Source of the DNA: Tetradesmus obliquus
Taxonomy: Eukaryota > Chlorophyta > Chlorophyceae > Sphaeropleales > Scenedesmaceae
Assembly (NCBI GenBank): GCA_030272155.1
Contig: CP126191.1
Location: 10,845,001 to 10,909,000, forward strand
DNA: 64,000 bases
Direction of reading: 5' to 3'
Shown here: piece by piece, positions 8,291 through 58,588 of the stretch
Position numbering within the stretch: the first letter of the stretch is position 1
Layout of the letters: each line of letters opens with the position of its first letter
The notes under the pieces: generated by a model
Database searches by the model: none
Told to the model about the DNA's origin: nothing
What the model saw: only the letters and a program-made list of their open reading frames with translations
Position numbers and translations under genes: made by a program

Positions 8291-9303
8291 CGCCCCGCTC
8301 TGGCTGGCACTCGCTGCAGTTGCAGCTGACTCAAACATCACCAGCAGCGGCGGCTGCACAGCAGCAGCGTGCAGCAGGTTCTATCGGTCGCAAAGGGCAG
8401 CCCAGGCCAGCAAGGCTCTGGCAGCCAGATGGGGGTATTCACAACGAACACCAGTATGAATCCCTGAAGCGGCGGTCATTGCATCACTGTTTGTCATTAC
8501 ATCGGCTGCTGACCATGGCGTTGATGCTATGGCTTGATGGGTAACATGATGATGATGATCGGCTGCTGACCAGGCAAGAGAGCATTGCAAGGCCCAGTGG
8601 CGTATTATATTCAATGCTTTGGATTGCATGCTGCGTCTGTCTGCGGTCATGTTGAGCTTGATACGATTTGTGATATTTGTGAGATGCTGCATGTTTGGCA
8701 TGTCTGGGAGCCTCGCCAGGCCATCTGAGACAGTGTCGTCTGGCAGCCGCTGCTGATGACAGGTGCTTGCATCGCATCAACCTGCTTCCCATGCTGCAGC
8801 GAGCATGTGCAAGGGAACGCGCGGTGCCGCCAGGGTGGTGATGGTACTGTGGCCGCAGGTGACTGCAATTGTTCATGCTGTTGGGCTTTGCAGTGCTTGC
8901 AATCTGGGCTGCATGCAGCAGATGGCGTATGGTGCATTATATATCAATGTTCATGTTGGCGCACCAGTTTTTCAGCCTGTGGATGCACAACCCAGATATA
9001 TCTATTTGTAAACGCCATTCTGCCATATCTATTTGTACACGCCATTGCCATTGCTGCATGAGTCCCTAGCACCAAAGCAATAGAAAGGCTCACCAGCCTC
9101 CACGGCAAGGCGCGGACAACCCTTTGAGATCAGCAAGCATGTTGCAACATGTGTAATATGCAGCATCGCAATTCTTGTAGCGGCAACCTCTGCACTGCTG
9201 ACAACTCGTCAACATTGCCACCTTCCATCTCAACATTCATAGCCCGCAAGTCAAAAGCCAGGGCGCCACCCACAACCCTGCCTCTGAACAACCTGGCAAA
9301 CTT
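8291..9303. other. Convergent 3' region between CLYBL and the LRR gene
   Basis: About 1 kb between two convergent stop codons, presumably 3' UTRs plus spacer. TGTAA words at 9007-9011 and 9152-9156 are candidate CLYBL polyadenylation signals, though they lie far from the stop. It contains mini-element copy A (8501-8572). No gene recognised. Confidence 0.5.
8501..8572 (+). mobile_element. 42-bp mini-element, copy A, with 15-bp target-site duplication
   Basis: The direct repeat atcggctgctgacca occurs at 8501-8515 and 8558-8572. Between them, 8516-8557 begins tggcgttgatgctatggc and ends in (ATG)n. The same core occurs inverted at 22485-22531 between a different direct repeat. Unrelated flanks that are each duplicated are the signature of insertion. 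The trinucleotide tail and the TSD length fit target-primed reverse transcription as in LINEs and SINEs, but the unit is far too short to class. Confidence 0.7.
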
Positions 9304-10972
9304 TCACTGCCCTTTCAGCGCAGCCAACTCCCCACCCATTTCAACATCAGGCAGGCTGTCGAGCAGGGCTTTCCAGTCGGGTATCTGCTTCTCAGGATCA
9401 GACTTCAGCTCAAACAGATCTAGGCGAGTGAGCTGTGTTGCTGCCTGCAGGCGCATGATGGGATGCGGTTGATCGCCCTCTGCATAGCCACTGCCAAACC
9501 AGCGAACTGGCGCTGACAGGAGGCGCAGCTGCTCCAGCCCAACAATCGCCTCGGCAAGGCTCTCACTATCCTCCACATCACCAATCAGCCTGGGCCTTCG
9601 AAGTGATAGCATTCTGACAGCGGCCACTGACAGCATCAGCTCCTGCAGGCATGTCAGGCCCGCCAAGCTGGCAGCCACATCAGCCACTGCATAAGCCCCC
9701 AGCTGAAGCGTCAAGCTGGTGAGGCTGGTCAGCTGCCCAAGTAGCGCTCCAAGGGCGGCTGGGCTGCTTGTGCCAAACCCTGCTCCTTCTTGTGGCGGCC
9801 CATGTGATGCCACACCTATCGATTTCAGCGGCAGCGCAGCCAGAGCTGCAATGACCTGGGGCGCGTTTTCATCTGCGATGTACAGCATGTCTATGTTCAT
9901 GTACGTGAGCTGCGTGAGGCACTGCGCAACGCCTGCAAAGCCGTCTGGTCGCTGGTGGTCAATGCTGCGGACGTCCAGGCGCTGCAGGCGGCTGAGCTGC
10001 ATCAAAGGCCGCGCATGCATGACCCAGGGCACTGTCAGGTTGATTATGAGGTTCGGTGGCAGCGTGGACTCCTCTCCGATGACAAAGCGCTTGCCGGTCA
10101 CGTGAAGAGTTGTCAGCGCTGTCAGGTGGGCCATCTGCACGCCCTGCTGCAGCTGTAGTATCCAGTCCATTTGCTTCATGTCCACATCCAGGCGCAGCTG
10201 CGGCAAGCTTGCAGGAAACCCTCGCAGCAGCTGTACAAACTGTGCAGGACCGCTGATGATGGTGCCCAGGCGGATGGAGGTGAGCTGGCTGAAGGTAGTT
10301 GACGGGATGGGCCCGTAGGGAAGGCATGCTGCTACGCCTGGGCCTGCAATGCTGATGCTCTGCAGGTTGGGAAGTGCTGCTAGCTCTGCGCGGATCATGC
10401 TGCCCTCGTGGCGATGCAAGGGATGGCCTGCATGGCTTGGTAGCTGCAGATTGATTCTGCTGAGCGTCTTGGGCATGCTCCGCAGGATGGCTACAGTGGC
10501 TGCTGCACTGCTGGTGTTGTGGCCAAACATTTGCTGCGGCCAAAAACATTACTGCAAATATAAACATTACTGCAAACCCAAACATTACTGCCAAGATAAA
10601 CATGACTGCAAATCCACTGCCAGTGGCCAGCAAGCTCCACGTGCACTCCTGGCTGAAGAAATCAATGTCCATCCTGTCTAGCTTCAGCTGCAGGGTGCGA
10701 ACGCTTTGCAGGAGGCATGCATTCTTCTCAAGCCACGTTGCTGCCTGCTGGGCGTTGCTGCTGCTGCTTGAATTCAGGTGCAGTTCCTGCAGCTGGTGGA
10801 TGCGGGCAGCGCGTGCTGCGGTTGCTACTGTTTTGCTGGTGGCAAGCAGTCTGACTGTCACGTCCAGTGATGGAGAAATGGAGGGATGACAGAGAACGTA
10901 GGGCAGCTCTAAGATGCTGTTGGGGACGTGGCTGCGCTGCATCGCACCACTGCTGTTGCTGTTGGAGGCCAT
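9304..10972 (-). CDS. F-box-like leucine-rich-repeat protein
   Basis: Exons 10607-10972 and 9304-10533 join in phase 0 across a 73-bp intron to give about 531 residues. The N-terminus has an F-box-like stretch (ILELPYVLCHPSISPSLDV, then VRLLATSKTVATAARAARI), followed by a first leucine-rich region. The long second exon is a series of irregular leucine-rich repeats with phrases such as LTSLTSLTLQLGAY, LAGLTCLQELMLSV, LSRLQRLDVRSID and QLTRLDLFELKSD. F-box/LRR proteins usually present substrates to SCF ubiquitin ligases, and large families of such LRR proteins occur in green algae. The role and partner here are unknown. Without the intron the two halves lie in different frames. The alternatives are two separate genes or a frameshifted pseudogene. 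The divergent AGE gene starts 1.1 kb away. Confidence 0.7.
10536..10612. repeat. 18-bp tandem repeat forming the LRR-gene intron
   Basis: Four imperfect copies of an 18-bp unit around aaacattactgcaaa on the plus strand (tttgcagtaatgttta on the gene strand). They coincide with the inferred intron 10534-10606. On the gene strand each unit contains both an acceptor-like tttgcag and a donor-like gtaatg or gtcatg. Confidence 0.75.
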
Positions 10973-20234: not shown

Positions 20235-21679
20235 CGCAACTGCTGCTGCTGCCACTGCTGCTGCTGCTGCTCGACAGGCTGGGCATGGACGGAGATCCAA
20301 GAGCCGCGCGTGGTGCCGCTGGCCTCCACTGCGCTGTACTACCTGCTGCTGCTGGTGAGTGCAGCAGACACGCAGCGACAGCACTGGCGCGCCTCGCAGC
20401 ACAGGCAGATGCAGCGATGCAAGGAAACCGTGTGTGCACATGACATGGTTCAAGCGGCAAGAGCAGGCAGGCGTACGGTCTGCTGCCCCCTGCTCTTCCA
20501 GCAGTGAACTCTCTGTTCCGCACAACTAGTGTCAGCAGCACGCAATGCCGCTGCTGCCATGGCGCAATCGTGCACGCCAGTCCCAGCAGCAGCACTCCAG
20601 CACACAGCACCAGCAGCAGCCACACCTGTTTGAAGCTTGCTTCTGCTGCCCGCTGCTGCCCGCTGCTACCCCTGCAGGTGTACAGCAGCTACTACGTGGT
20701 GCAGCTCACAGACGGCCAGCAGGCAGCTGATGACCTGCTGCTGCGCCTCACCAACGACCACGCGGCAGTGGCCTCAGGCGACAGCCTGCGCCTCTTCACA
20801 GCCTTCTTCGTCTCTGACAGCATCCAGCAACTTGTCATCGGCCTGCTGGGCCTGGCCACTGTGGCAGCAGAGCTGGAGTCGTTGTTGGGCTACAGCACCT
20901 TCTGGGCGGTGTGGTGTGTGACCGTGCTGGCTGGATCCTTAGCAGATGCGGCGATGAGTGGGCTGCCCATCACTGCGGGGCCTGCCCCCGGGGTTGGTGG
21001 GGCAGCTGCTGCGCTGCTGGCGCACCACCTGCACAACTGGCGCGTGGAGCAGATGCTGGCGCAGGCCAAGGCGGGGCAGGTGCCGCAGCAGATGGTGCAG
21101 CTGGAAGACGAGTACAACAGGCAGCAGCGGCAGCTGTGGGCTGCAGAGGCCGCAGCAGCAGGCGCCTCCACCACCACCACCACCACCAGCAGCAGCAGCA
21201 GTAGCAGCGCATCAGCACAGCAGCAGGGTGGGCAGCAGCCAAACAGCCGCAGCGAGCCTGCTGCTGTGGAGCTGATTGAGTCTGAGCTGGAGGGCCCGCT
21301 GGGCTTATCAGTCAACATCGCGCTGCCGCGTGAGGGCAAGGCTTTCATCACTCTTGGGGGCGCTGCTGTGGGTGTGGTGTCAGCGCTGCAGGACGCAGCC
21401 AACAGCGACACATACACGGACTGGCCGGCGCTGTCTGTTGGCTTTGCGGTTGGTGCGGTGCTGGGCTGGCTGGCGTGCCCTGTGTACTCAATCGAGCTGG
21501 AGCCAGCCAGCAGCAGGACCGGCAGCAGCAGCAGTGAGGAGCAGGCAGACCTGCTGCTGCCTGTGCTGCATGACATGCGGCCGCCCGCAGAGCGCGCGAA
21601 TGCCGTGGTGGGCACTGCCGCAATCCTGTTTGCTGTGCTGGGTGTATGGCTGATCTCTGAGGGTATGTTCATGGATTAG
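19863..21679 (+). CDS. Plastid rhomboid-like membrane protein, probably protease-dead
   Basis: Exons 19863-20091, 20278-20354 and 20678-21679 (GT-AG, phases close) give 435 residues. The first about 40 (MSSATLLQRSRCHCAASRVP..., rich in Ser, Arg, Ala) resemble a chloroplast transit peptide, followed by an acidic stretch. The membrane core resembles rhomboid: LRLFTAFFVSDSIQQLVIGL (140-159), LESLLGYSTFWAVWCVTVLAGSL (168-190) and PAPGVGGAAAALLAHHLHN (204-222). True rhomboids have a catalytic Ser in GxSG at this last block; here residues 207-210 read GVGG and no catalytic His is evident later. A 40-residue Thr/Ser/Gln-rich linker (about 262-292) precedes three further hydrophobic segments, ending GVWLISEGMFMD. 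Inactive plastid rhomboid relatives are known in plants. Family assignment rests on pattern only; an unrelated multi-pass plastid protein remains possible. Confidence 0.65.
20202..20270. repeat. CTG microsatellite upstream of rhomboid-like exon 2
   Basis: Interrupted CTG run of about 20 units ending seven bases before the acceptor AG at 20276-20277. Confidence 0.85.
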
Positions 21680-22470: not shown

Positions 22471-22545
22471 GGCTCCAAGCAGATCATCATCATCATCATG
22501 TTACTCATCAAGCCATAGCATCAACGCCATCGGCTCCAAGCAGAT
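22471..22545 (-). mobile_element. 47-bp mini-element, copy B, with 14-bp target-site duplication
   Basis: The direct repeat ggctccaagcagat occurs at 22471-22484 and 22532-22545. Between them, 22485-22531 read on the minus strand is gatggcgttgatgctatggc, then ttgatgagtaac and a (ATG)n tail. It differs from copy A by one base in the 42 shared and has a longer tail. Both copies start at nearly the same base, which argues for a discrete unit rather than random 5' truncation. Confidence 0.7.
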
Positions 22546-24749: not shown

Positions 24750-27700
24750 TCGAAAAAACCATGCATTTCAAATAGATAAATCAAATTAACATGCATACAG
24801 CTAGCTCCTGACATCGTCAGCTGGGTGGTCAAAGCGCAGAGACGTACCTGCCAGGCTGGTGGGCGGGGAAACTCATGTGATGGAAAATCCCTAGTACGAT
24901 GCGGCATGCAAGAAACTTCAATGATACTGCACTTGCTGCGGGCTTCTGTGCATTTGATATAAAGAAACCAAATTACCAGGCATATATAATGCTCCTAATA
25001 TCGTCAGCTTGGTGGTCCAAGCGCAGAGACGCACCTGGTGGGCCGGGGAAAACCCATGTGATCACAAAACCCTAGTACGATTCGGCAGGCAAGAAGCTTA
25101 ATGATACTGCACTTGCTGTGGGCTCCTGTGCATTTCAAATAGAGAAGCCAAATAACCAGGCATATATAATGCTTCTGACATCGTCAGCTGGGTGGTCACA
25201 GCGCAGAGACGTACCTGGTGGGCCGGTGAAACTCCGGTGATCGAAAACCTCCATAGTGCGATTTGGCAGGCATACAGCTCAAATGATACTGCACTAGCTG
25301 TTGTCTTCTATTAATTTCAAACGGAGAAACCAAAGTAACAGGCATATGTCATGCTCCAGACATCGTCAGCTGGGTAGTTTGAGCACAGTGACACGGGAGA
25401 ACAGCTCCAATGATACTGAACTTGCTGCGGGCGTCTGTGCATTTCAAACAGAAAAACCAAAGTAACAGGCATATATCATGCTCCAGACATCGTCAGCTGG
25501 GTAGTCTAAGCACAGTGACGCGCCCGGTGGCCGGGGAAAACTCCGGTGATTGAAAAACCCTAGTGCGATTCGGCGGGCGTACAGCTCCAATGATACTGCA
25601 GTCGCTGTGGGCTTCTGTGCATTTCAAATAGATAAATCAAAACAACAGGCATATAGCATGCTCATGACATCGTCAGCTAGGTGGTTGAAGCGCTGCAACA
25701 CACCTGGTGGGCAGGAGGAAACTCCGGTGATCGAAAACCTGCATAGTGCGATTTGGCAGGCATACAACTCAAATGATACTGCACTAGCTGGTGTCTTCTG
25801 TGCATTTAAAATAGATAAATCAAAATTACAGGCATATAGCATGCTCCTGACATCGTCAGTTTAATGGCTGAAGCGCTGCGACGCCCCTGGTGGCCCGGGG
25901 AAAACTCCGGTGATCGACTAACTGTACATCACCCCTAGTGGGATTCGGCGGGAGAACAGTTCCAATGATACTGAACTTGCTGCGGGCGTCTGTGCATTTG
26001 AAACAGAAAAACCAAAGTAACAGGCATATATCATGTTTCAGAAGCACAGTGACGCGCCCGGTGGCCGGGGAAAACTCCGGTGATTGGAAAACCCTAGTGC
26101 GATTCGGCGGGCGTACAGCTCCAATGATACTGCAGTCGCTGTGGGCTTCTGTGCATTTCAAATAGATAAATCAAAACAACAGGCATATAGCATGCTCATG
26201 ACATCGTCAGCTAGGTGGTTGAAGCGCTGCAACACACCTGGTGGGCAGGGGAAAACTCCGGTGATCGAAAACCTGCATAGTGCGATTTGGCAGGCATACA
26301 ACTCAAATGATACTGCACTAGCTGGTGTCTTCTGTGCATTTAAAATAGATAAATCAAAATTACAGGCATATAGCATGCTCCTGACATCGTCAGTTTCATG
26401 GCTGAAGCGCTTTGACGCCCCTGGTGGGCCGAGGAAAACCCCCGGTGATTGACTAACTGTAAATAAACCCTAGTGGGATTCGGCGGGAGAACAGCTCCAA
26501 TGATACTGAACTTGCTGCGGGCGTCTGTGCATTTGAAACAAAAAAACCAAAGTAACAGGCATATATCATGCTCCAGACATCGTCAGCAGAGTAGTCTAAG
26601 CACAGTGACGCGCCCGGTGGGCTGGGGAAAACTCCGGTGATCAAAAACCTCCATAGTGCGATTTGGCAGGCATACAGCTCTAATGATACTGCACTAGCTG
26701 GTGTCTTCTGTGCCTGTCAAATAGATAAATCAAAAATACAGTCATATAGCATGCTCCTGACATCGTCAGCTAAATGGCTGAAGCGCTGCGACGCCCCTGG
26801 TGGGCCTGGGAAAACTCCGGTGATCGACTAACTGTACATAACCCCTAGTGGGATTCGGCTGGAGAACAGCTCCAATGATACTGAACTTGCTGCGGGCGTC
26901 TGTGCATTTCAAACAGAAAAACCAAATAAACAGGCATATATCATGCTCCAGACATCGTCAGCTGGGTAGTCTAAGCACAGTGACGCGCCCGGTGGGCCGG
27001 GGAAAACTCCGGTGATCGGAAAACCCTAGTGCGATTTGGCGGGCGTACAGCTCTAATGATACTGCACTAGCTGGTGTCTTCTGTGCCTATCAAATAGATA
27101 AATCAAAATTAAAGGCATATAGCATGCTCATAACATCGTCAGCTAGGTGGTTGAAGCGCTGCAACACACCTGGTGGGCAGGAGAAAACTCCGGTGATCGA
27201 AAACCTGCATAGTGCGATTTGGCAGGCATACAGCTCAAATCATACTGCACTAGCTGGTGTCTTCTGTGCCTGTCAAATAGATAGATCAAAAATAAAGGCA
27301 TATAGCATGCTCCTCACATCGTCAGCTAAATGGCTGAAGCGCTGCGACGCCCCTGGTGGGCCGGGGAAAACCCCGGTGATCGACTAACTGTACATCACCC
27401 CTAGTGGGATTCGGCGGGAGAACAGCTCCAATGATACTGAACTTGCTGCGGGCGTCTGTGCATTTCAAACAGAAAAACCAAAGTAACAGGCATATATCAT
27501 GCTCCAGACATCGTCAGCAGAGTAGTCTAAGCACAGTGACGCGCCCGGTGGGCTGGGGAAAACTCCGGTGATCAAAAACCTCCATAGTGCGATTTGGCAG
27601 GCATACAGCTCAAATGATACTGCAGTCGCTGTGGGCTTCTGTGCATTTCAAATAGATAAATCAAAATTACAGGCATTTAGCATGCTCATGACATCGTCAG

Positions 27701-36352: not shown

Positions 36353-39300
36353 CACTGCACTTACAACTGCTTTCCCTAACCATTCCCTAAGCCGTTCCCT
36401 AAGGCTTCCCTATATCGTGGTTAGGGAATCCCTATTAGGGACAAATGGCGTCCCTAATAGGGATTCCCTAACCTGATAGGGATTCCCTATTTCTTCTGTA
36501 CCGCGAAACAGCTGTAAAACGGCATTTTACACGCATAAAACATGATCGGAACCATTGTCATACACACGGGTCACTACTGGAGCAGCTCCGTGACTCGGTG
36601 CACCGACCTCGGTGGCCTCGCAGTACCATGCATATGCAGCATATGGGGCATGCCTGAGCAGCAACGTGATGCTGCTGCCAACAGCATCAAACGCACCATA
36701 TATATGCTATACAGTAAAACATACTCTGGCACAGAGTGTTGGTCTCTGATCCACATGATGAAGGCACAGCAGCTGCAACCTTGCTGTTCTGCAACCATGG
36801 CACGTAGCTACGTGCCACAGCAAGTTAACATGTTGCAGCGTCTGATGTCAATGATTAGGTACCCAGCAAAACATGTCATCTTCTCCTGCATCAATCAAGT
36901 AGCTTCAAAGGTCCAAAATCCCACGCATCACGCCTCGACACCACCACCAGCAGCGCCAGCAGTGGCACTGCGTGTGCTGCGGCGCAGCTGCTGCCCCGTC
37001 GTCACAGTTGGGTCAGCGCACTTTATGAAAGCCACTCTCGCTCGTCATCTGAGGATATTGTGCCAGCAGACCCCTCACTACCAGCTCGCTTGCGCTTCCT
37101 GTGCTGCTGCTTGCCCGGCTGCTTGCCTGCTGCTGGCCGCGCGCCTGCTTAGTCCCAGACAGCTTGCGCGGCTTTGTCGTAGCTGCTGCTGAGGGCGCTG
37201 AGGCCTTGCCAGGCACACGGCCTGCGGCCCTTGCTGCCCTGTTTGCTGGCAGCAGCGGCTTGACGAGCTGGCAGCAAGGCAGAGACCACACAGAGAACGA
37301 GCCACAGTCAGTTCATCATGATGACGTACAACATCCATGTGCAGCAGAACCAGACAGCAGCTACTGCTGGACCTTATCCCAACACACCTCTTCCGCTGCC
37401 TTGCATGCAAGCTCCTGCAAGTGCATGCGACAGATCCTGCCCATCAAGTCAAGATATGCACATAGGCCGCCTGCAAGAATGAAGAACTGCAGTTGGAACC
37501 CACCTGCTGCAGCGCTGATGCAACAGGATCTGCGACCTGCGATCCTGTTGGCAAGCCCTGCTGCTCCTGCGGAGACTGCTCCTGCAGCTCTGAGCCCTGC
37601 TCCTGCAGCTGTGGGTCATGCTGCTGCTGCTGCTGCTGCTCCTGCAGCTTTGGGTCATGCTGCTGCTGCTGCTGCTGCAGCTGTGGGGCCTGCTGTTGCA
37701 CCTGCGGTGGAGCGATACCTGCGAAGGGGTTGAGCGGTGTGGAGACAGCTGGCACCTGAGCTGCTAGTCCTGTAATCGTGCTCTGCAGCTGTCTCCGGCT
37801 GTCCCGCCCGCTGGCCCTCTGCATACACCATTCTCATTGAGTGCGCCAGCAGCCTGCATGGTCGACGAGCGCAGGCAGGCAACAGCGCAGAGCATATGGG
37901 TGTTAGTGTTGTTGCAACAGGAAGCTGTTTGCAACGCCTGAACTGCTCAACACGGCTTGCCGTGCCATGCTACCTCTGCCCATCTGCCATGCCTTGCTGG
38001 CTCTGCAGATGTGGTGATGATTATTTAGGCGCAGAAACATGTCGCCCACACAGCAAGTGTAGCTGCTGCTGAGCCGCAGAACCTGTCAGGGCCTGCAGAG
38101 GGTGTGCTTGATGTTGTTTAACATCAGCGCCCACAGCAGCATAGTCAGACCCTCTGGTGCATTCAGCAGCGGCATGCTGTAAAATGCTGCAGCACTGCGC
38201 CCCAGCAGAAAAGGCGCCAGCAGGCAGCAGTGCTGTACAACATCGCTGCTCAACAGCTGGCAGCGTCACGCAGTGCAGGCTGTCCAACTGCTGCTGTGGG
38301 GTATGCCGCACCTGCGTCTGGCACTCCCTGCTGCAGTACGCAGCCTGGCCGCAGCCTGCGCACTTGTTTGCGCGCTCCTTGCTGCACACCTGCACGGCGG
38401 CAGCAGCGCACCTGGCACTGTTAGCATGCTGACATGTGTGAAATTGACTGACAAAGCAGCAGCTGCCAGGGCTTGCAGCACCAAGAACCAAAGGTGGATA
38501 CAGCAACCAGAAAAGCGCACGTGGCTGACGCAATTGCCAGGTTGTACAAGCTATATCACAGACAGCGGCAGCAGTAGCAGCAGCAGGCAGCACCAGCAAC
38601 ACAAAAGGATCAGCAGCAGCAAGCGCTGCAGCCACCCCCCGCACCTTGCACAGTGTGTGCAGCTTCACGTCAGCAGGCAGCGGCCGCAGCGGCAGCAGGA
38701 AGCTGGCCCGGGACTCGCTGCCACGCCTGAAGCCCTCTTGCGCTGACACGCAGTCGGCCGGCAGCAGCTCTGCATGCATGCGTTCATGGCGGCAGCGCGG
38801 GCGGCATGTGCAGTGAGTGGTGCCGGCATCCACCGCATGCGAGGGTTGCTTGCACAGCTGCCAGTGCGCAATAGATAACAGCGGCCGGTGCTTCATGCAG
38901 AACGAAGGGTAGCAGCAGCAGCAACAACAGCTATGTTAACCAACAATGCAGCTGCAGCTCAACTCATGTTTGTGCTGTGCTGACATGATCTTACCTGTGT
39001 CACTGTCCCTGCAAGCACTTGCAGCAGTGAGGCAGCACCGCGAGAACGGTAGAGCAGCAGCCGCCTGAGGCAGGCGTGCATCCTGTGTTGTATCATTGCT
39101 GGTAGACAAAGTTCTGCACATAACAACATCAGGCAAACAAAGCCAGGTGGCACATACATAAAGGCGCACACCCAAGCAGTTGTGCAGTGCCTGTCAGGCC
39201 GTTGCGCACACAGACAGCGTTGAATCCGTGGCAGCCCTACAAACTGTAATAGACTGCCAATCATTGCTGCAGCGTGCATAGCTGCGTGCATACGTAACAA

Positions 39301-40689
39301 GTGCAGGGCTGCATGGTCAGCCGTCTCAAAAGCAGGTAACCCTTCTCACCTTTACTGTTCCACGAGCGTGACAGTGATTACGCAACTGCAAGGCAGCATC
39401 GTCCCATATGACAGCGCTCTGTTTGTGCGCCGCACAATGTTGTGTGCCCACGTATCACAGGAGGCATATGGTGTGCCCACGTATCACAGGAGGCATTTGG
39501 CTGAGCAGTTCTACATGGCTACATAGCTGTCAACAGCATGCTGCTCCTGGTGCTGCAGCAGGCAGCGCTGCTGCCTCCTCCACATGCTGCTGGCACAAAG
39601 CAGTATAGCTACTATACACGAACATTTTATACGCAGATGATGCACTTTAGAACCCCTGGAGGAGGCACTGCATCAGCCACTTTGCAAAGGCAGCAACAGC
39701 TCCTGCCCCTGGCACTGTGAAGCACCATTGCTGCACCAACCTCAGCGGATCAGTCCAGGGATGACAGCCACCGTAGCCACCTGACATCTGCAGGATATGG
39801 GCTGCGCGATTGATGATGATTGAGCAAGACAACGCCCATTGCTGCAACCACCGAGTGCACTAAAGGTCAACCACCACTGATCCGATCCATGCAGCGCCCG
39901 ATGAGACCTCTTGCCGGCCCAGTAGCTATTTGTGATGTATGAGTCATCTCAATTGCTGTCGAGGCCCGGCCAATCGATGCTATAGACCGAACGTGTGAGT
40001 GCTTCAGGAGCAGCAGGTTGCTACGGGAGCGTCGAATCGCAAGATGAAGTAATAAATGCACGAGGGTGTCGTTTTGTGATTTGAAGGCGGCAAGTTGCGC
40101 GTATGGAGCTTCCATCTGTTTCGGCCCCAGTCAAATGTCTTGGCATAACACCTGTGACAGAGCTATGTTTGACGGCACTGCTGAGCTTGCATTATATCAC
40201 GTACAAGAGTTTGCTTTGTATTTGATTTCAACAGCTTACCGAGCACCATCACTTGGTGAGCGTGAATTTGCTCGTGGCACTAGTGGAGCTGCTGCATCTG
40301 CTGCAGCTCAGTGCCGCAGGCAGGTCCACTTGAAGTGTGCAGAAGTGCAGCACAAGTTGCGCTGATACACGCAGAAGCACATTGATCGTAATCATAATGT
40401 CCTTCATCCAACGGCAAAGATGCACAACACGCAGCACCTTCAGCAGCACTGCTAGCAGCAGCAGCAGCAGTCAGCAGGACCCACTGCAGGAGCAGGCACA
40501 GCAATGGTGAGGGTCGCCTACCCGGCTGCCAGCTTCAACATAAGTACAAGTAGACAATATATCATATAATACAATGCGTTTTACTCTCTACAGGCTCTGT
40601 ATATGCGAGAAACAGCTGCTGCAACTTTTAGGGAATGGCTAGGGAAGGGTTAGGGAACGGTTAGGGAACGAGTTCTGACCAGAGTGTGG
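36350..40689. mobile_element. CACTA (EnSpm-type) DNA transposon 2, 4,334 bp, in the satellite
   Basis: The element runs 36353-40686, begins CACTGCACTTACAACTGC and ends, read inward from the other side, CACTCTGGTCAGAACTCG. CACT, the AACT at position 13 and the following TTCCCTAACC are shared at both ends. Flanking tgg at 36350-36352 and 40687-40689 is a 3-bp TSD; the intact satellite reads cccctggtgggcc. Subterminal repeats of ttccctaa and its complement occupy 36372-36491 and 40626-40670. No transposase is recognised. A spliced MYND-finger gene lies on the minus strand, and a 29-bp direct duplication at 39443-39500. Other interior open frames are unrecognised. Confidence 0.87.
38021..38896 (-). 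CDS. MYND zinc-finger protein gene carried by transposon 2
   Basis: Exon 38645-38896 starts with an ATG (MKHRPLLSIAHW) and ends PADVKLHTLCK at a GT donor. Exon 38312-38389 begins VCSKERANKC and continues AGCGQAAYCSRECQTQ to a GT donor. Joined in phase 0 they give C-x2-C-x7-C-x2-C-x4-Y-C-x3-C, the first three-quarters of a MYND finger, and the finger only forms after splicing. A last exon at 38021-38194 or 38021-38176 would keep phase and supply a further His and Cys, but with atypical spacing. MYND fingers bind proline-rich partner proteins, and short MYND proteins are very numerous in green algae. No transposase function is implied; capture of a host gene fragment is the simplest reading. 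More upstream exons are possible. Confidence 0.55.
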   Translation of the reverse strand: MKHRPLLSIAHWQLCKQPSHAVDAGTTHCTCRPRCRHERMHAELLPADCVSAQEGFRRGSESRASFLLPLRPLPADVKLHTLCKVRGVAAALAAADPFVLLVLPAAATAAAVCDIACTTWQLRQPRALFWLLYPPLVLGAASPGSCCFVSQFHTCQHANSARCAAAAVQVCSKERANKCAGCGQAAYCSRECQTQVRHTPQQQLDSLHCVTLPAVEQRCCTALLPAGAFSAGAQCCSILQHAAAECTRGSDYAAVGADVKQHQAHPLQALTGSAAQQQLHLLCGRHVSAPK

Positions 40690-54251: not shown

Positions 54252-57200
54252 CACTGCACTTACAACTGCTTTCCCTAACCATTCCCTAAGCCGTTCCCTA
54301 AGGCTTCCCTATATCGTGGTTAGGGAATCCCTATTAGGGACAAATGGCGTCCCTAATAGGGATTCCCTAACCTGATAGGGATTCCCTATTTCTTCTGTAC
54401 CGCGAAACAGCTGTAAAACGGCATTTTACACGCATAAAACATGATCGGAACCATTGTCATACACACGGGTCACTACTGGAGCAGCTCCGTGACTCGGTGC
54501 ACCGACCTCGGTGGCCTCGCAGTACCATGCATATGCAGCATATGGGGCATGCCTGAGCAGCAACGTGATGCTGCTGCCAACAGCATCAAACGCACCATAT
54601 ATATGCTATACAGTAAAACATACTCTGGCACAGAGTGTTGGTCTCTGATCCACATGATGAAGGCACAGCAGCTGCAACCTTGCTGTTCTGCAACCATGGC
54701 ACGTAGCTACGTGCCACAGCAAGTTAACATGTTGCAGCGTCTGATGTCAATGATTAGGTACCCAGCAAAACATGTCATCTTCTCCTGCATCAATCAAGTA
54801 GCTTCAAAGGTCCAAAATCCCACGCATCACGCCTCGACACCACCACCAGCAGCGCCAGCAGTGGCACTGCGTGTGCTGCGGCGCAGCTGCTGCCCCGTCG
54901 TCACAGTTGGGTCAGCGCACTTTATGAAAGCCACTCTCGCTCGTCATCTGAGGATATTGTGCCAGCAGACCCCTCACTACCAGCTCGCTTGCGCTTCCTG
55001 TGCTGCTGCTTGCCCGGCTGCTTGCCTGCTGCTGGCCGCGCGCCTGCTTAGTCCCAGACAGCTTGCGCGGCTTTGTCGTAGCTGCTGCTGAGGGCGCTGA
55101 GGCCTTGCCAGGCACACGGCCTGCGGCCCTTGCTGCCCTGTTTGCTGGCAGCAGCGGCTTGACGAGCTGGCAGCAAGGCAGAGACCACACAGAGAACGAG
55201 CCACAGTCAGTTCATCATGATGACGTACAACATCCATGTGCAGCAGAACCAGACAGCAGCTACTGCTGGACCTTATCCCAACACACCTCTTCCGCTGCCT
55301 TGCATGCAAGCTCCTGCAAGTGCATGCGACAGATCCTGCCCATCAAGTCAAGATATGCACATAGGCCGCCTGCAAGAATGAAGAACTGCAGTTGGAACCC
55401 ACCTGCTGCAGCGCTGATGCAACAGGATCTGCGACCTGCGATCCTGTTGGCAAGCCCTGCTGCTCCTGCGGAGACTGCTCCTGCAGCTCTGAGCCCTGCT
55501 CCTGCAGCTGTGGGTCATGCTGCTGCTGCTGCTGCTGCTCCTGCAGCTTTGGGTCATGCTGCTGCTGCTGCTGCTGCAGCTGTGGGGCCTGCTGTTGCAC
55601 CTGCGGTGGAGCGATACCTGCGAAGGGGTTGAGCGGTGTGGAGACAGCTGGCACCTGAGCTGCTAGTCCTGTAATCGTGCTCTGCAGCTGTCTCCGGCTG
55701 TCCCGCCCGCTGGCCCTCTGCATACACCATTCTCATTGAGTGCGCCAGCAGCCTGCATGGTCGACGAGCGCAGGCAGGCAACAGCGCAGAGCATATGGGT
55801 GTTAGTGTTGTTGCAACAGGAAGCTGTTTGCAACGCCTGAACTGCTCAACACGGCTTGCCGTGCCATGCTACCTCTGCCCATCTGCCATGCCTTGCTGGC
55901 TCTGCAGATGTGGTGATGATTATTTAGGCGCAGAAACATGTCGCCCACACAGCAAGTGTAGCTGCTGCTGAGCCGCAGAACCTGTCAGGGCCTGCAGAGG
56001 GTGTGCTTGATGTTGTTTAACATCAGCGCCCACAGCAGCATAGTCAGACCCTCTGGTGCATTCAGCAGCGGCATGCTGTAAAATGCTGCAGCACTGCGCC
56101 CCAGCAGAAAAGGCGCCAGCAGGCAGCAGTGCTGTACAACATCGCTGCTCAACAGCTGGCAGCGTCACGCAGTGCAGGCTGTCCAACTGCTGCTGTGGGG
56201 TATGCCGCACCTGCGTCTGGCACTCCCTGCTGCAGTACGCAGCCTGGCCGCAGCCTGCGCACTTGTTTGCGCGCTCCTTGCTGCACACCTGCACGGCGGC
56301 AGCAGCGCACCTGGCACTGTTAGCATGCTGACATGTGTGAAATTGACTGACAAAGCAGCAGCTGCCAGGGCTTGCAGCACCAAGAACCAAAGGTGGATAC
56401 AGCAACCAGAAAAGCGCACGTGGCTGACGCAATTGCCAGGTTGTACAAGCTATATCACAGACAGCGGCAGCAGTAGCAGCAGCAGGCAGCACCAGCAACA
56501 CAAAAGGATCAGCAGCAGCAAGCGCTGCAGCCACCCCCCGCACCTTGCACAGTGTGTGCAGCTTCACGTCAGCAGGCAGCGGCCGCAGCGGCAGCAGGAA
56601 GCTGGCCCGGGACTCGCTGCCACGCCTGAAGCCCTCTTGCGCTGACACGCAGTCGGCCGGCAGCAGCTCTGCATGCATGCGTTCATGGCGGCAGCGCGGG
56701 CGGCATGTGCAGTGAGTGGTGCCGGCATCCACCGCATGCGAGGGTTGCTTGCACAGCTGCCAGTGCGCAATAGATAACAGCGGCCGGTGCTTCATGCAGA
56801 ACGAAGGGTAGCAGCAGCAGCAACAACAGCTATGTTAACCAACAATGCAGCTGCAGCTCAACTCATGTTTGTGCTGTGCTGACATGATCTTACCTGTGTC
56901 ACTGTCCCTGCAAGCACTTGCAGCAGTGAGGCAGCACCGCGAGAACGGTAGAGCAGCAGCCGCCTGAGGCAGGCGTGCATCCTGTGTTGTATCATTGCTG
57001 GTAGACAAAGTTCTGCACATAACAACATCAGGCAAACAAAGCCAGGTGGCACATACATAAAGGCGCACACCCAAGCAGTTGTGCAGTGCCTGTCAGGCCG
57101 TTGCGCACACAGACAGCGTTGAATCCGTGGCAGCCCTACAAACTGTAATAGACTGCCAATCATTGCTGCAGCGTGCATAGCTGCGTGCATACGTAACAAG

Positions 57201-58588
57201 TGCAGGGCTGCATGGTCAGCCGTCTCAAAAGCAGGTAACCCTTCTCACCTTTACTGTTCCACGAGCGTGACAGTGATTACGCAACTGCAAGGCAGCATCG
57301 TCCCATATGACAGCGCTCTGTTTGTGCGCCGCACAATGTTGTGTGCCCACGTATCACAGGAGGCATATGGTGTGCCCACGTATCACAGGAGGCATTTGGC
57401 TGAGCAGTTCTACATGGCTACATAGCTGTCAACAGCATGCTGCTCCTGGTGCTGCAGCAGGCAGCGCTGCTGCCTCCTCCACATGCTGCTGGCACAAAGC
57501 AGTATAGCTACTATACACGAACATTTTATACGCAGATGATGCACTTTAGAACCCCTGGAGGAGGCACTGCATCAGCCACTTTGCAAAGGCAGCAACAGCT
57601 CCTGCCCCTGGCACTGTGAAGCACCATTGCTGCACCAACCTCAGCGGATCAGTCCAGGGATGACAGCCACCGTAGCCACCTGACATCTGCAGGATATGGG
57701 CTGCGCGATTGATGATGATTGAGCAAGACAACGCCCATTGCTGCAACCACCGAGTGCACTAAAGGTCAACCACCACTGATCCGATCCATGCAGCGCCCGA
57801 TGAGACCTCTTGCCGGCCCAGTAGCTATTTGTGATGTATGAGTCATCTCAATTGCTGTCGAGGCCCGGCCAATCGATGCTATAGACCGAACGTGTGAGTG
57901 CTTCAGGAGCAGCAGGTTGCTACGGGAGCGTCGAATCGCAAGATGAAGTAATAAATGCACGAGGGTGTCGTTTTGTGATTTGAAGGCGGCAAGTTGCGCG
58001 TATGGAGCTTCCATCTGTTTCGGCCCCAGTCAAATGTCTTGGCATAACACCTGTGACAGAGCTATGTTTGACGGCACTGCTGAGCTTGCATTATATCACG
58101 TACAAGAGTTTGCTTTGTATTTGATTTCAACAGCTTACCGAGCACCATCACTTGGTGAGCGTGAATTTGCTCGTGGCACTAGTGGAGCTGCTGCATCTGC
58201 TGCAGCTCAGTGCCGCAGGCAGGTCCACTTGAAGTGTGCAGAAGTGCAGCACAAGTTGCGCTGATACACGCAGAAGCACATTGATCGTAATCATAATGTC
58301 CTTCATCCAACGGCAAAGATGCACAACACGCAGCACCTTCAGCAGCACTGCTAGCAGCAGCAGCAGCAGTCAGCAGGACCCACTGCAGGAGCAGGCACAG
58401 CAATGGTGAGGGTCGCCTACCCGGCTGCCAGCTTCAACATAAGTACAAGTAGACAATATATCATATAATACAATGCGTTTTACTCTCTACAGGCTCTGTA
58501 TATGCGAGAAACAGCTGCTGCAACTTTTAGGGAATGGCTAGGGAAGGGTTAGGGAACGGTTAGGGAACGAGTTCTGACCAGAGTGTGG
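54249..58588. mobile_element. CACTA transposon 2, second copy via segmental duplication
   Basis: Element 54252-58585 with the same ends, same flanking tgg and same satellite context as 36353-40686. The insertion site is identical, so this is a passenger of the 17,899-bp duplication rather than a second transposition. I see no difference between the two copies. Confidence 0.9.
55920..56795 (-). CDS. MYND zinc-finger protein gene, second copy
   Basis: Duplicate of the gene at 38021-38896. Exons are 56544-56795 and 56211-56288, with a candidate last exon 55920-56093. The LCKVCSKERANKC finger forms across the first intron as in copy 1. Sequence appears identical, so both copies have the same coding capacity. 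Confidence 0.5.
   Translation of the reverse strand: MKHRPLLSIAHWQLCKQPSHAVDAGTTHCTCRPRCRHERMHAELLPADCVSAQEGFRRGSESRASFLLPLRPLPADVKLHTLCKVRGVAAALAAADPFVLLVLPAAATAAAVCDIACTTWQLRQPRALFWLLYPPLVLGAASPGSCCFVSQFHTCQHANSARCAAAAVQVCSKERANKCAGCGQAAYCSRECQTQVRHTPQQQLDSLHCVTLPAVEQRCCTALLPAGAFSAGAQCCSILQHAAAECTRGSDYAAVGADVKQHQAHPLQALTGSAAQQQLHLLCGRHVSAPK

Follow-up and report, generated by a model that had tools for sequence, protein, structure and literature searches.

The two short inserts that we analysed in the window (the whole 64,000-nt stretch of DNA) almost certainly derive from one non-LTR retrotransposon (LINE) of the APE type, as heavily 5′-truncated copies. This near-certainty belongs to the truncated-LINE reading and does not extend to the predicted RNA hairpin considered below. 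A direct reading of positions 8501–8572 bears out the original prediction of a 42-bp insert within exact 15-bp direct repeats, and its positions were exact (8501–8515, 8516–8557 and 8558–8572). The window holds just one other copy, which is likewise flanked, as had been claimed, by two exact copies of an unrelated 14-mer (22471–22545, minus strand, ATCTGCTTGGAGCC). The features of both inserts, including their target-site duplications (TSDs), are as follows.

8501..8515, plus strand: left TSD of insert 1, ATCGGCTGCTGACCA
8516..8545, plus strand: insert 1, final 30 nt of the LINE ahead of the tail (ORF end, TGA stop and TGGGTAAC)
8546..8557, plus strand: insert 1, (ATG)4, the LINE 3′ tail
8558..8572, plus strand: right TSD of insert 1, ATCGGCTGCTGACCA
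22532..22545, minus strand: left TSD of insert 2, ATCTGCTTGGAGCC (14 bp)
22500..22531, minus strand: insert 2, final 32 nt of the LINE (GATGGCG...GAGTAAC, one difference)
22485..22499, minus strand: insert 2, (ATG)5 tail
22471..22484, minus strand: right TSD of insert 2, ATCTGCTTGGAGCC (14 bp)

Insert 1 (8516–8557, 42 bp; copy L078 of our set) reads TGGCGTTGATGCTATGGCTTGATGGGTAAC + ATGATGATGATG, and insert 2 differs from it once (GAGTAAC versus GGGTAAC). The final A of the left ATCGGCTGCTGACCA doubles as the adjacent LINE base, a 1-nt microhomology. Across the window, the 15-mer ATCGGCTGCTGACCA occurs at just these two sites, even when 2 mismatches are allowed (0.27 expected from shuffles), while the core occurs exactly twice at up to 3 mismatches (0.09 expected), the second time at 22512–22529 on the minus strand. 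As a random control, we searched 20,000 window places of equal geometry and found a shared word of at least 14 nt at 116 of them (0.6%), a rate that is probably inflated by the window's tandem arrays. Therefore, two independently flanked inserts are not the product of chance.

Several other features of the window were recorded. A 183/375-bp satellite forms large arrays in positions 24762–64000. Between these arrays, the tandem-repeat rows and 291-aa ORF (MYND finger, 3.3e-05) of 36372–40670 recur at 54271–58569, a spacing of ~17.9 kb. Two further ORFs presumably belong to host genes, one with a Rhomboid domain (20504–21679, plus strand, 4.4e-09) and one with a sub-threshold leucine-rich-repeat match (9304–10530, minus strand, 2.3e-05).

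A search of the whole assembly (104.66 Mb in 17 contigs), in which the window occupies C1:10845001–10909000, established that the 30-bp core is a real repeat: it occurs exactly at 134 places and with up to 3 mismatches at 439, compared to 0 for a reversed-pattern control. Shorter probes recovered more exact copies (268 for the 21-mer GGCTTGATGGGTAACATGATG and 329 for the 16-mer GGGTAACATGATGATG). We characterized 131 copies, comprising the first 100 of the 268 21-mer places in list order (contigs C1–C6) and the 31 entries among the first 100 of the 16-mer list that these did not include. The extra 31 are biased towards short or mutated copies because they were chosen for lacking an exact 21-mer; the 100-copy set, in turn, is blind to tips shorter than 15 nt. 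The tails carry 2–4 ATG units in 114 of the 131 copies, found with search patterns that demanded at least 2 units. Much longer microsatellite tails were seen in L097 (at least 52 units), L137 (23 units) and L179 (at least 18 units). When the fetched sequence was searched for (ATG)n alone, four tracts had no recognised tip; one passed the repeat test, its 'repeat' being (TGATG)-type tail sequence, and the tracts are too few to judge.

In longer copies, the sequence ahead of the 42-bp unit is coding, and it is this extension that identifies the parent. It had been suggested that the unit might be the 3′ tip of a LINE, and the longer copies do run into a reverse-transcriptase (RT) ORF; looking for a longer element with the same 3′ end and tail, we found an RT-coding LINE, L153 (C16:315801–323800, minus strand), the one copy that was read over its full length. 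Its RT ORF (L153:434–3799, minus strand, 1121 aa) matches RVT_1 at 1.3e-27, and upstream of it lies an APE-like endonuclease ORF (L153:3231–4460, minus strand, 409 aa, Exo_endo_phos at 6.6e-14). The two ORFs overlap in different frames, an arrangement that may reflect a frameshift in that copy, and both sit ahead of the common 3′ end. The RT ORF terminates in ...GRGADGVDAMA* with a TGA stop, followed by TGGGTAAC and then (ATG)n, so that only 8 nt separate the stop from the tail. Consequently, the LINE has almost no 3′ UTR, and the 42-bp unit is composed of its last codons, its stop and its tail.

Compared to solved structures, the RT is most similar to R2 (3.5e-13), with human L1 at 1.8e-4. 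A 220-aa C-terminal query returned at least 152 matches, including fragments and more distant relatives, with 150 of 275 candidates scored. The query was taken from copy L001, and its final ~10 residues lie in another frame, which leaves matches across the remainder unaffected; L001 is one G short in a GGGG run near the ORF end. The terminus that L001 would give (...GPMALMLWLDG*) was ruled out, as L153 and L154 both end in ...GADGVDAMA*, in a different frame. Overall, the copies have the properties of a LINE family: a common 3′ end with varied reach into an RT-coding element, and a short-repeat 3′ tail, (ATG)n, that adjoins the TSD. The combination of an APE endonuclease and an RT with a very short, repeat-like 3′ UTR is also present, a feature of RTE-type elements that we do not take to be unique to them. 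At one site, L057 (G000:C1:1588279–1588949), a second and longer copy of the LINE directly follows the tail of a tip copy, as a nested or twin insertion.

We found that the retained length of the LINE varies widely, from 7 to 515+ nt with a median of 31 nt (131 copies; the median is also 31 in the 100-copy set), so the unit is not of a fixed 42 bp as first described. Most copies are very short: 102 of the 131 retain no more than 40 nt and 112 no more than 60 nt (75 and 85, respectively, of the 100 list-order copies), and only five retain 370 nt or more. Tips with perfect repeats can be as short as 7 nt (L159) or 3–7 nt (L183). Across the 76 copies with a TSD of at least 9 bp, the whole insertion has a median length of 42.5 bp and is at most 60 bp in 64. 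A LINE 9-mer lies within 40 nt above the scored break in 11 of 112 copies scored at up to 60 nt, compared to 3 of 85 in the control; thus, some of them are in fact longer copies that have lost an internal segment, clearly so in L121, L139, L168, L170, L177 and L185, and lengths are slightly underestimated. What is unusual here is quantitative, namely the extreme shortness and the commonness of tips among the copies examined. In the parts of the open-licence literature available to us, we found no report of a LINE whose typical copies are comparably short.

The shortness of the copies raises the alternative, also offered in the original prediction, of a mini-retroelement in its own right: a discrete unit, comprising ~31 nt and the tail, that has an RNA of its own (for example, a processed 3′ fragment of LINE RNA) and depends on the LINE for mobilisation in trans. 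The strongest single cluster of starts does fall at 31–33 nt (28 of 131 copies) and at the predicted hairpin bulge, so a processed RNA end is conceivable. However, starts also cluster at 11–12, 16–18 and 26 nt and continue into long LINE copies that hold the RT ORF, such an element would have no room for a promoter, and 85 short copies have no common upstream module. We consider a discrete mini-retroelement very unlikely, and truncation of the LINE itself to be the far better account.

The target-site duplications were evaluated in 127 copies, after dropping four of the 131 that retained more than 480 nt or had too little flank. A direct repeat of at least 8 bp is present in 87 of the 127 (control 3.2%), of at least 10 bp in 72 (mismatched flank pairs 0.44%) and of at least 14 bp in 32 (control 0). 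An exact repeat of at least 8 bp is absent from the other 40, some of which have a mismatched repeat (e.g. L086) while others have none visible. Among the 76 copies with a TSD of at least 9 bp, its length is 9–17 bp in 69, the variable length that is typical of a LINE. The data therefore supports insertion with target-site duplication as the origin, both at the two window sites and genome-wide, and the prospect that most copies would lack duplicated flanks is not what we found. Homology does extend beyond the position of the 42-bp unit's repeats, but solely because the repeats of longer copies lie farther out, at their own break: the duplication tracks each copy's own break, and most copies have their own direct repeat nearby.

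The position of the duplications also bears on whether the tips could be the 3′ end of a SINE that has its tail in common with the LINE, another of the suggested origins. Algal SINEX elements do have 3′ ends in common with their LINEs, according to the accessible part of PMC3747384. A SINE would carry its own 5′ module, with a pol III promoter, between the duplication and the LINE-derived end. Instead, 58 of the 76 TSDs have their end close to the LINE break, at most 4 nt inside or 3 nt outside it. Moreover, a comparison of the upstream flanks of the 85 short copies revealed no repeated module, only two similar pairs, one of which is leftover LINE. We regard a SINE origin as highly improbable.

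A local origin without retrotransposition, in which two sites underwent tandem duplication or template-switch repair by chance, can be weighed on the same data. One locus (C5:295386–295440) is indeed a local tandem array of tip plus duplicated flank. The 439 dispersed copies at up to 3 mismatches, the (ATG)n tail, the AC|A motif described below, the variable 5′ ends and the link to the RT ORF all argue against such an origin, which we find scarcely credible for the window inserts. As a general explanation, local duplication is refuted, and chance repeats are rejected as well. At the same locus, in L182 and L183 (G000:C5:295341–295550), a tip of at most 7 nt, (ATG)n and a 20-bp flank are tandemly repeated with a 39-bp unit; a tiny insertion thus seems to have seeded a small array.

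We analysed the target sites and junctions of the 76 copies for signs of how the truncated LINE copies were inserted. The trimer AC|A occurs at the left TSD end in 22 (background 3.0%, p = 4e-16); the first TSD base is A in 49, and C precedes the A in 42. Extra bases separate the TSD from the LINE at 31 junctions, with four or more bases at 18. At the remaining 45, target and LINE share 1–4 nt in 39 cases (p = 3e-9; the chance level of 0.44 used here is our own derivation). Target-primed reverse transcription that is interrupted early accounts for these observations, and we infer the following steps. The LINE endonuclease would nick the target, preferentially at AC|A, and the LINE RNA would prime on the nick through its (AUG)n end. 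After tens of nucleotides, cDNA synthesis would halt or the template, possibly an already-short RNA, would end. The cDNA end would then be joined to the upstream target, often via 1–4 nt of microhomology.

The breaks are not distributed uniformly over the range of 7–40 nt (chi-square p = 2e-9), with 67 of the 102 located at 11–12, 16–18, 26 or 31–33 nt from the tail. We calculated the predicted fold of the 75-nt 3′ end of this family (family 1) and obtained a hairpin with arms at 37–33/31–27 plus 20–11; position 32 forms its bulge and positions 26–21 its loop. The predicted folds at 55 and 120 nt are nearly identical to it, and the upper stem is retained at 45 nt. The clustered breaks coincide with the 3′ base, inner joint, loop edge and bulge of this predicted hairpin. 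A rival sequence rule places 83 of the 102 breaks 0–3 nt before a TG, where such positions make up 22 of 34. Because the hot spots were picked post hoc, after the data had been viewed, we offer the hairpin as a hypothesis only, by which early stops might be set by a structure ~11–37 nt from the tail. In its full form, the 3′ hairpin would abort target-primed reverse transcription at set points (3′ base, bulge and loop), and the LINE would mainly write ~20–70 bp insertions, a few of them with at most 7 LINE nt plus (ATG)n; we consider this possible but doubtful. The predicted hairpin could perhaps also serve as a recognition signal on the LINE RNA for the LINE's own protein.

A sister LINE family, with 51–57% amino acid identity to family 1, provides a comparison. 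Its 3′ end, as read in 11 copies, is near-identical and has an (ATG)n tail. The sister tip 16-mer AAATGGTAACATGATG has 157 exact copies and the sister 30-mer has 95, so short tips are likely in this family too, although mutation could be part of the cause of the gap. Between the families, 0 of 20 stem bases differ, compared to 8 of 35 other bases (p = 0.04). The predicted sister fold forms the family 1 hairpin at just one of four lengths (75 nt) and a different hairpin at 45, 55 and 132 nt, which speaks against the hairpin proposal. Overall, conservation of the predicted hairpin is weakly supported. In a separate region (G000:C8:244321–309246), a tandem array contains six of the listed ORF matches of the sister LINE, with a spacing of 10,568 bp in four of the five steps.

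Insertions of this kind have a precedent. According to the accessible part of the report on RTE LINEs in Lepidoptera (Tay et al. 2010, PMC2887409), these elements have an extremely short, simple-repeat 3′ UTR, and they have abundant copies in which the TSDs flank just the RT C-terminus and the repeat, some having been misread as SINEs. The view that such insertions are not a described class is therefore not upheld, since that part of the report describes, for the RTE clade, short 3′ ends of LINEs that carry TSDs and microsatellite tails. Judged by their features, the present insertions match that description in kind: both have an APE endonuclease and RT, a short repeat 3′ UTR, tip copies between TSDs and an ability to seed microsatellites. 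Unlike the RTE LINEs as described there, half of the copies examined here retain at most 31 nt and are hardly recognisable by protein similarity, the nick site is AC|A, and APE and RT occupy two overlapping frames (L153).

Other LINEs share some of these features. According to the available text of PMC4176376, two zebrafish LINEs, ZfL2-1 and ZfL2-2, cannot do without a 3′ stem-loop, and our LINE resembles these stringent-type elements and UnaL2 in having a predicted stem-loop ahead of a short 3′ repeat; it differs from their description in that the predicted stem-loop would lie mostly within the ORF end. Green-algal RandI, RTEX and L1 LINEs carry short-repeat tails such as (ATT)n, (CAA)n and (CATA)n, as seen in the same portion of PMC3747384; our LINE likewise has a non-poly(A) 3′ repeat, but the algal repeats tabulated there do not include (ATG)n. 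In the excerpted account of PMC13295347, Bov-B and plant RTE elements have a signature of a T-run ~10 nt upstream and then an A at the TSD start. The TSDs here similarly start with A (49 of 76), whereas C (42 of 76), not T, precedes it, and there is no T enrichment at −14 to −9 in the 76 copies. The absent T-run is not decisive against RTE membership, as the signature is reported there for some RTE only.

These results close the reading of the tips as a new mini-element, and they provide an extensive natural collection of LINE insertions that aborted, in which the start, stop and nick positions can be read. Because the tips are expected to fall below the usual thresholds of repeat annotation, surveys of such genomes may undercount both LINE activity and the origin of ATG microsatellites. 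If the hairpin proposal were true, a hairpin-aborting LINE would be a disperser of near-pure trinucleotide microsatellites, which would be expected to escape standard repeat annotation.
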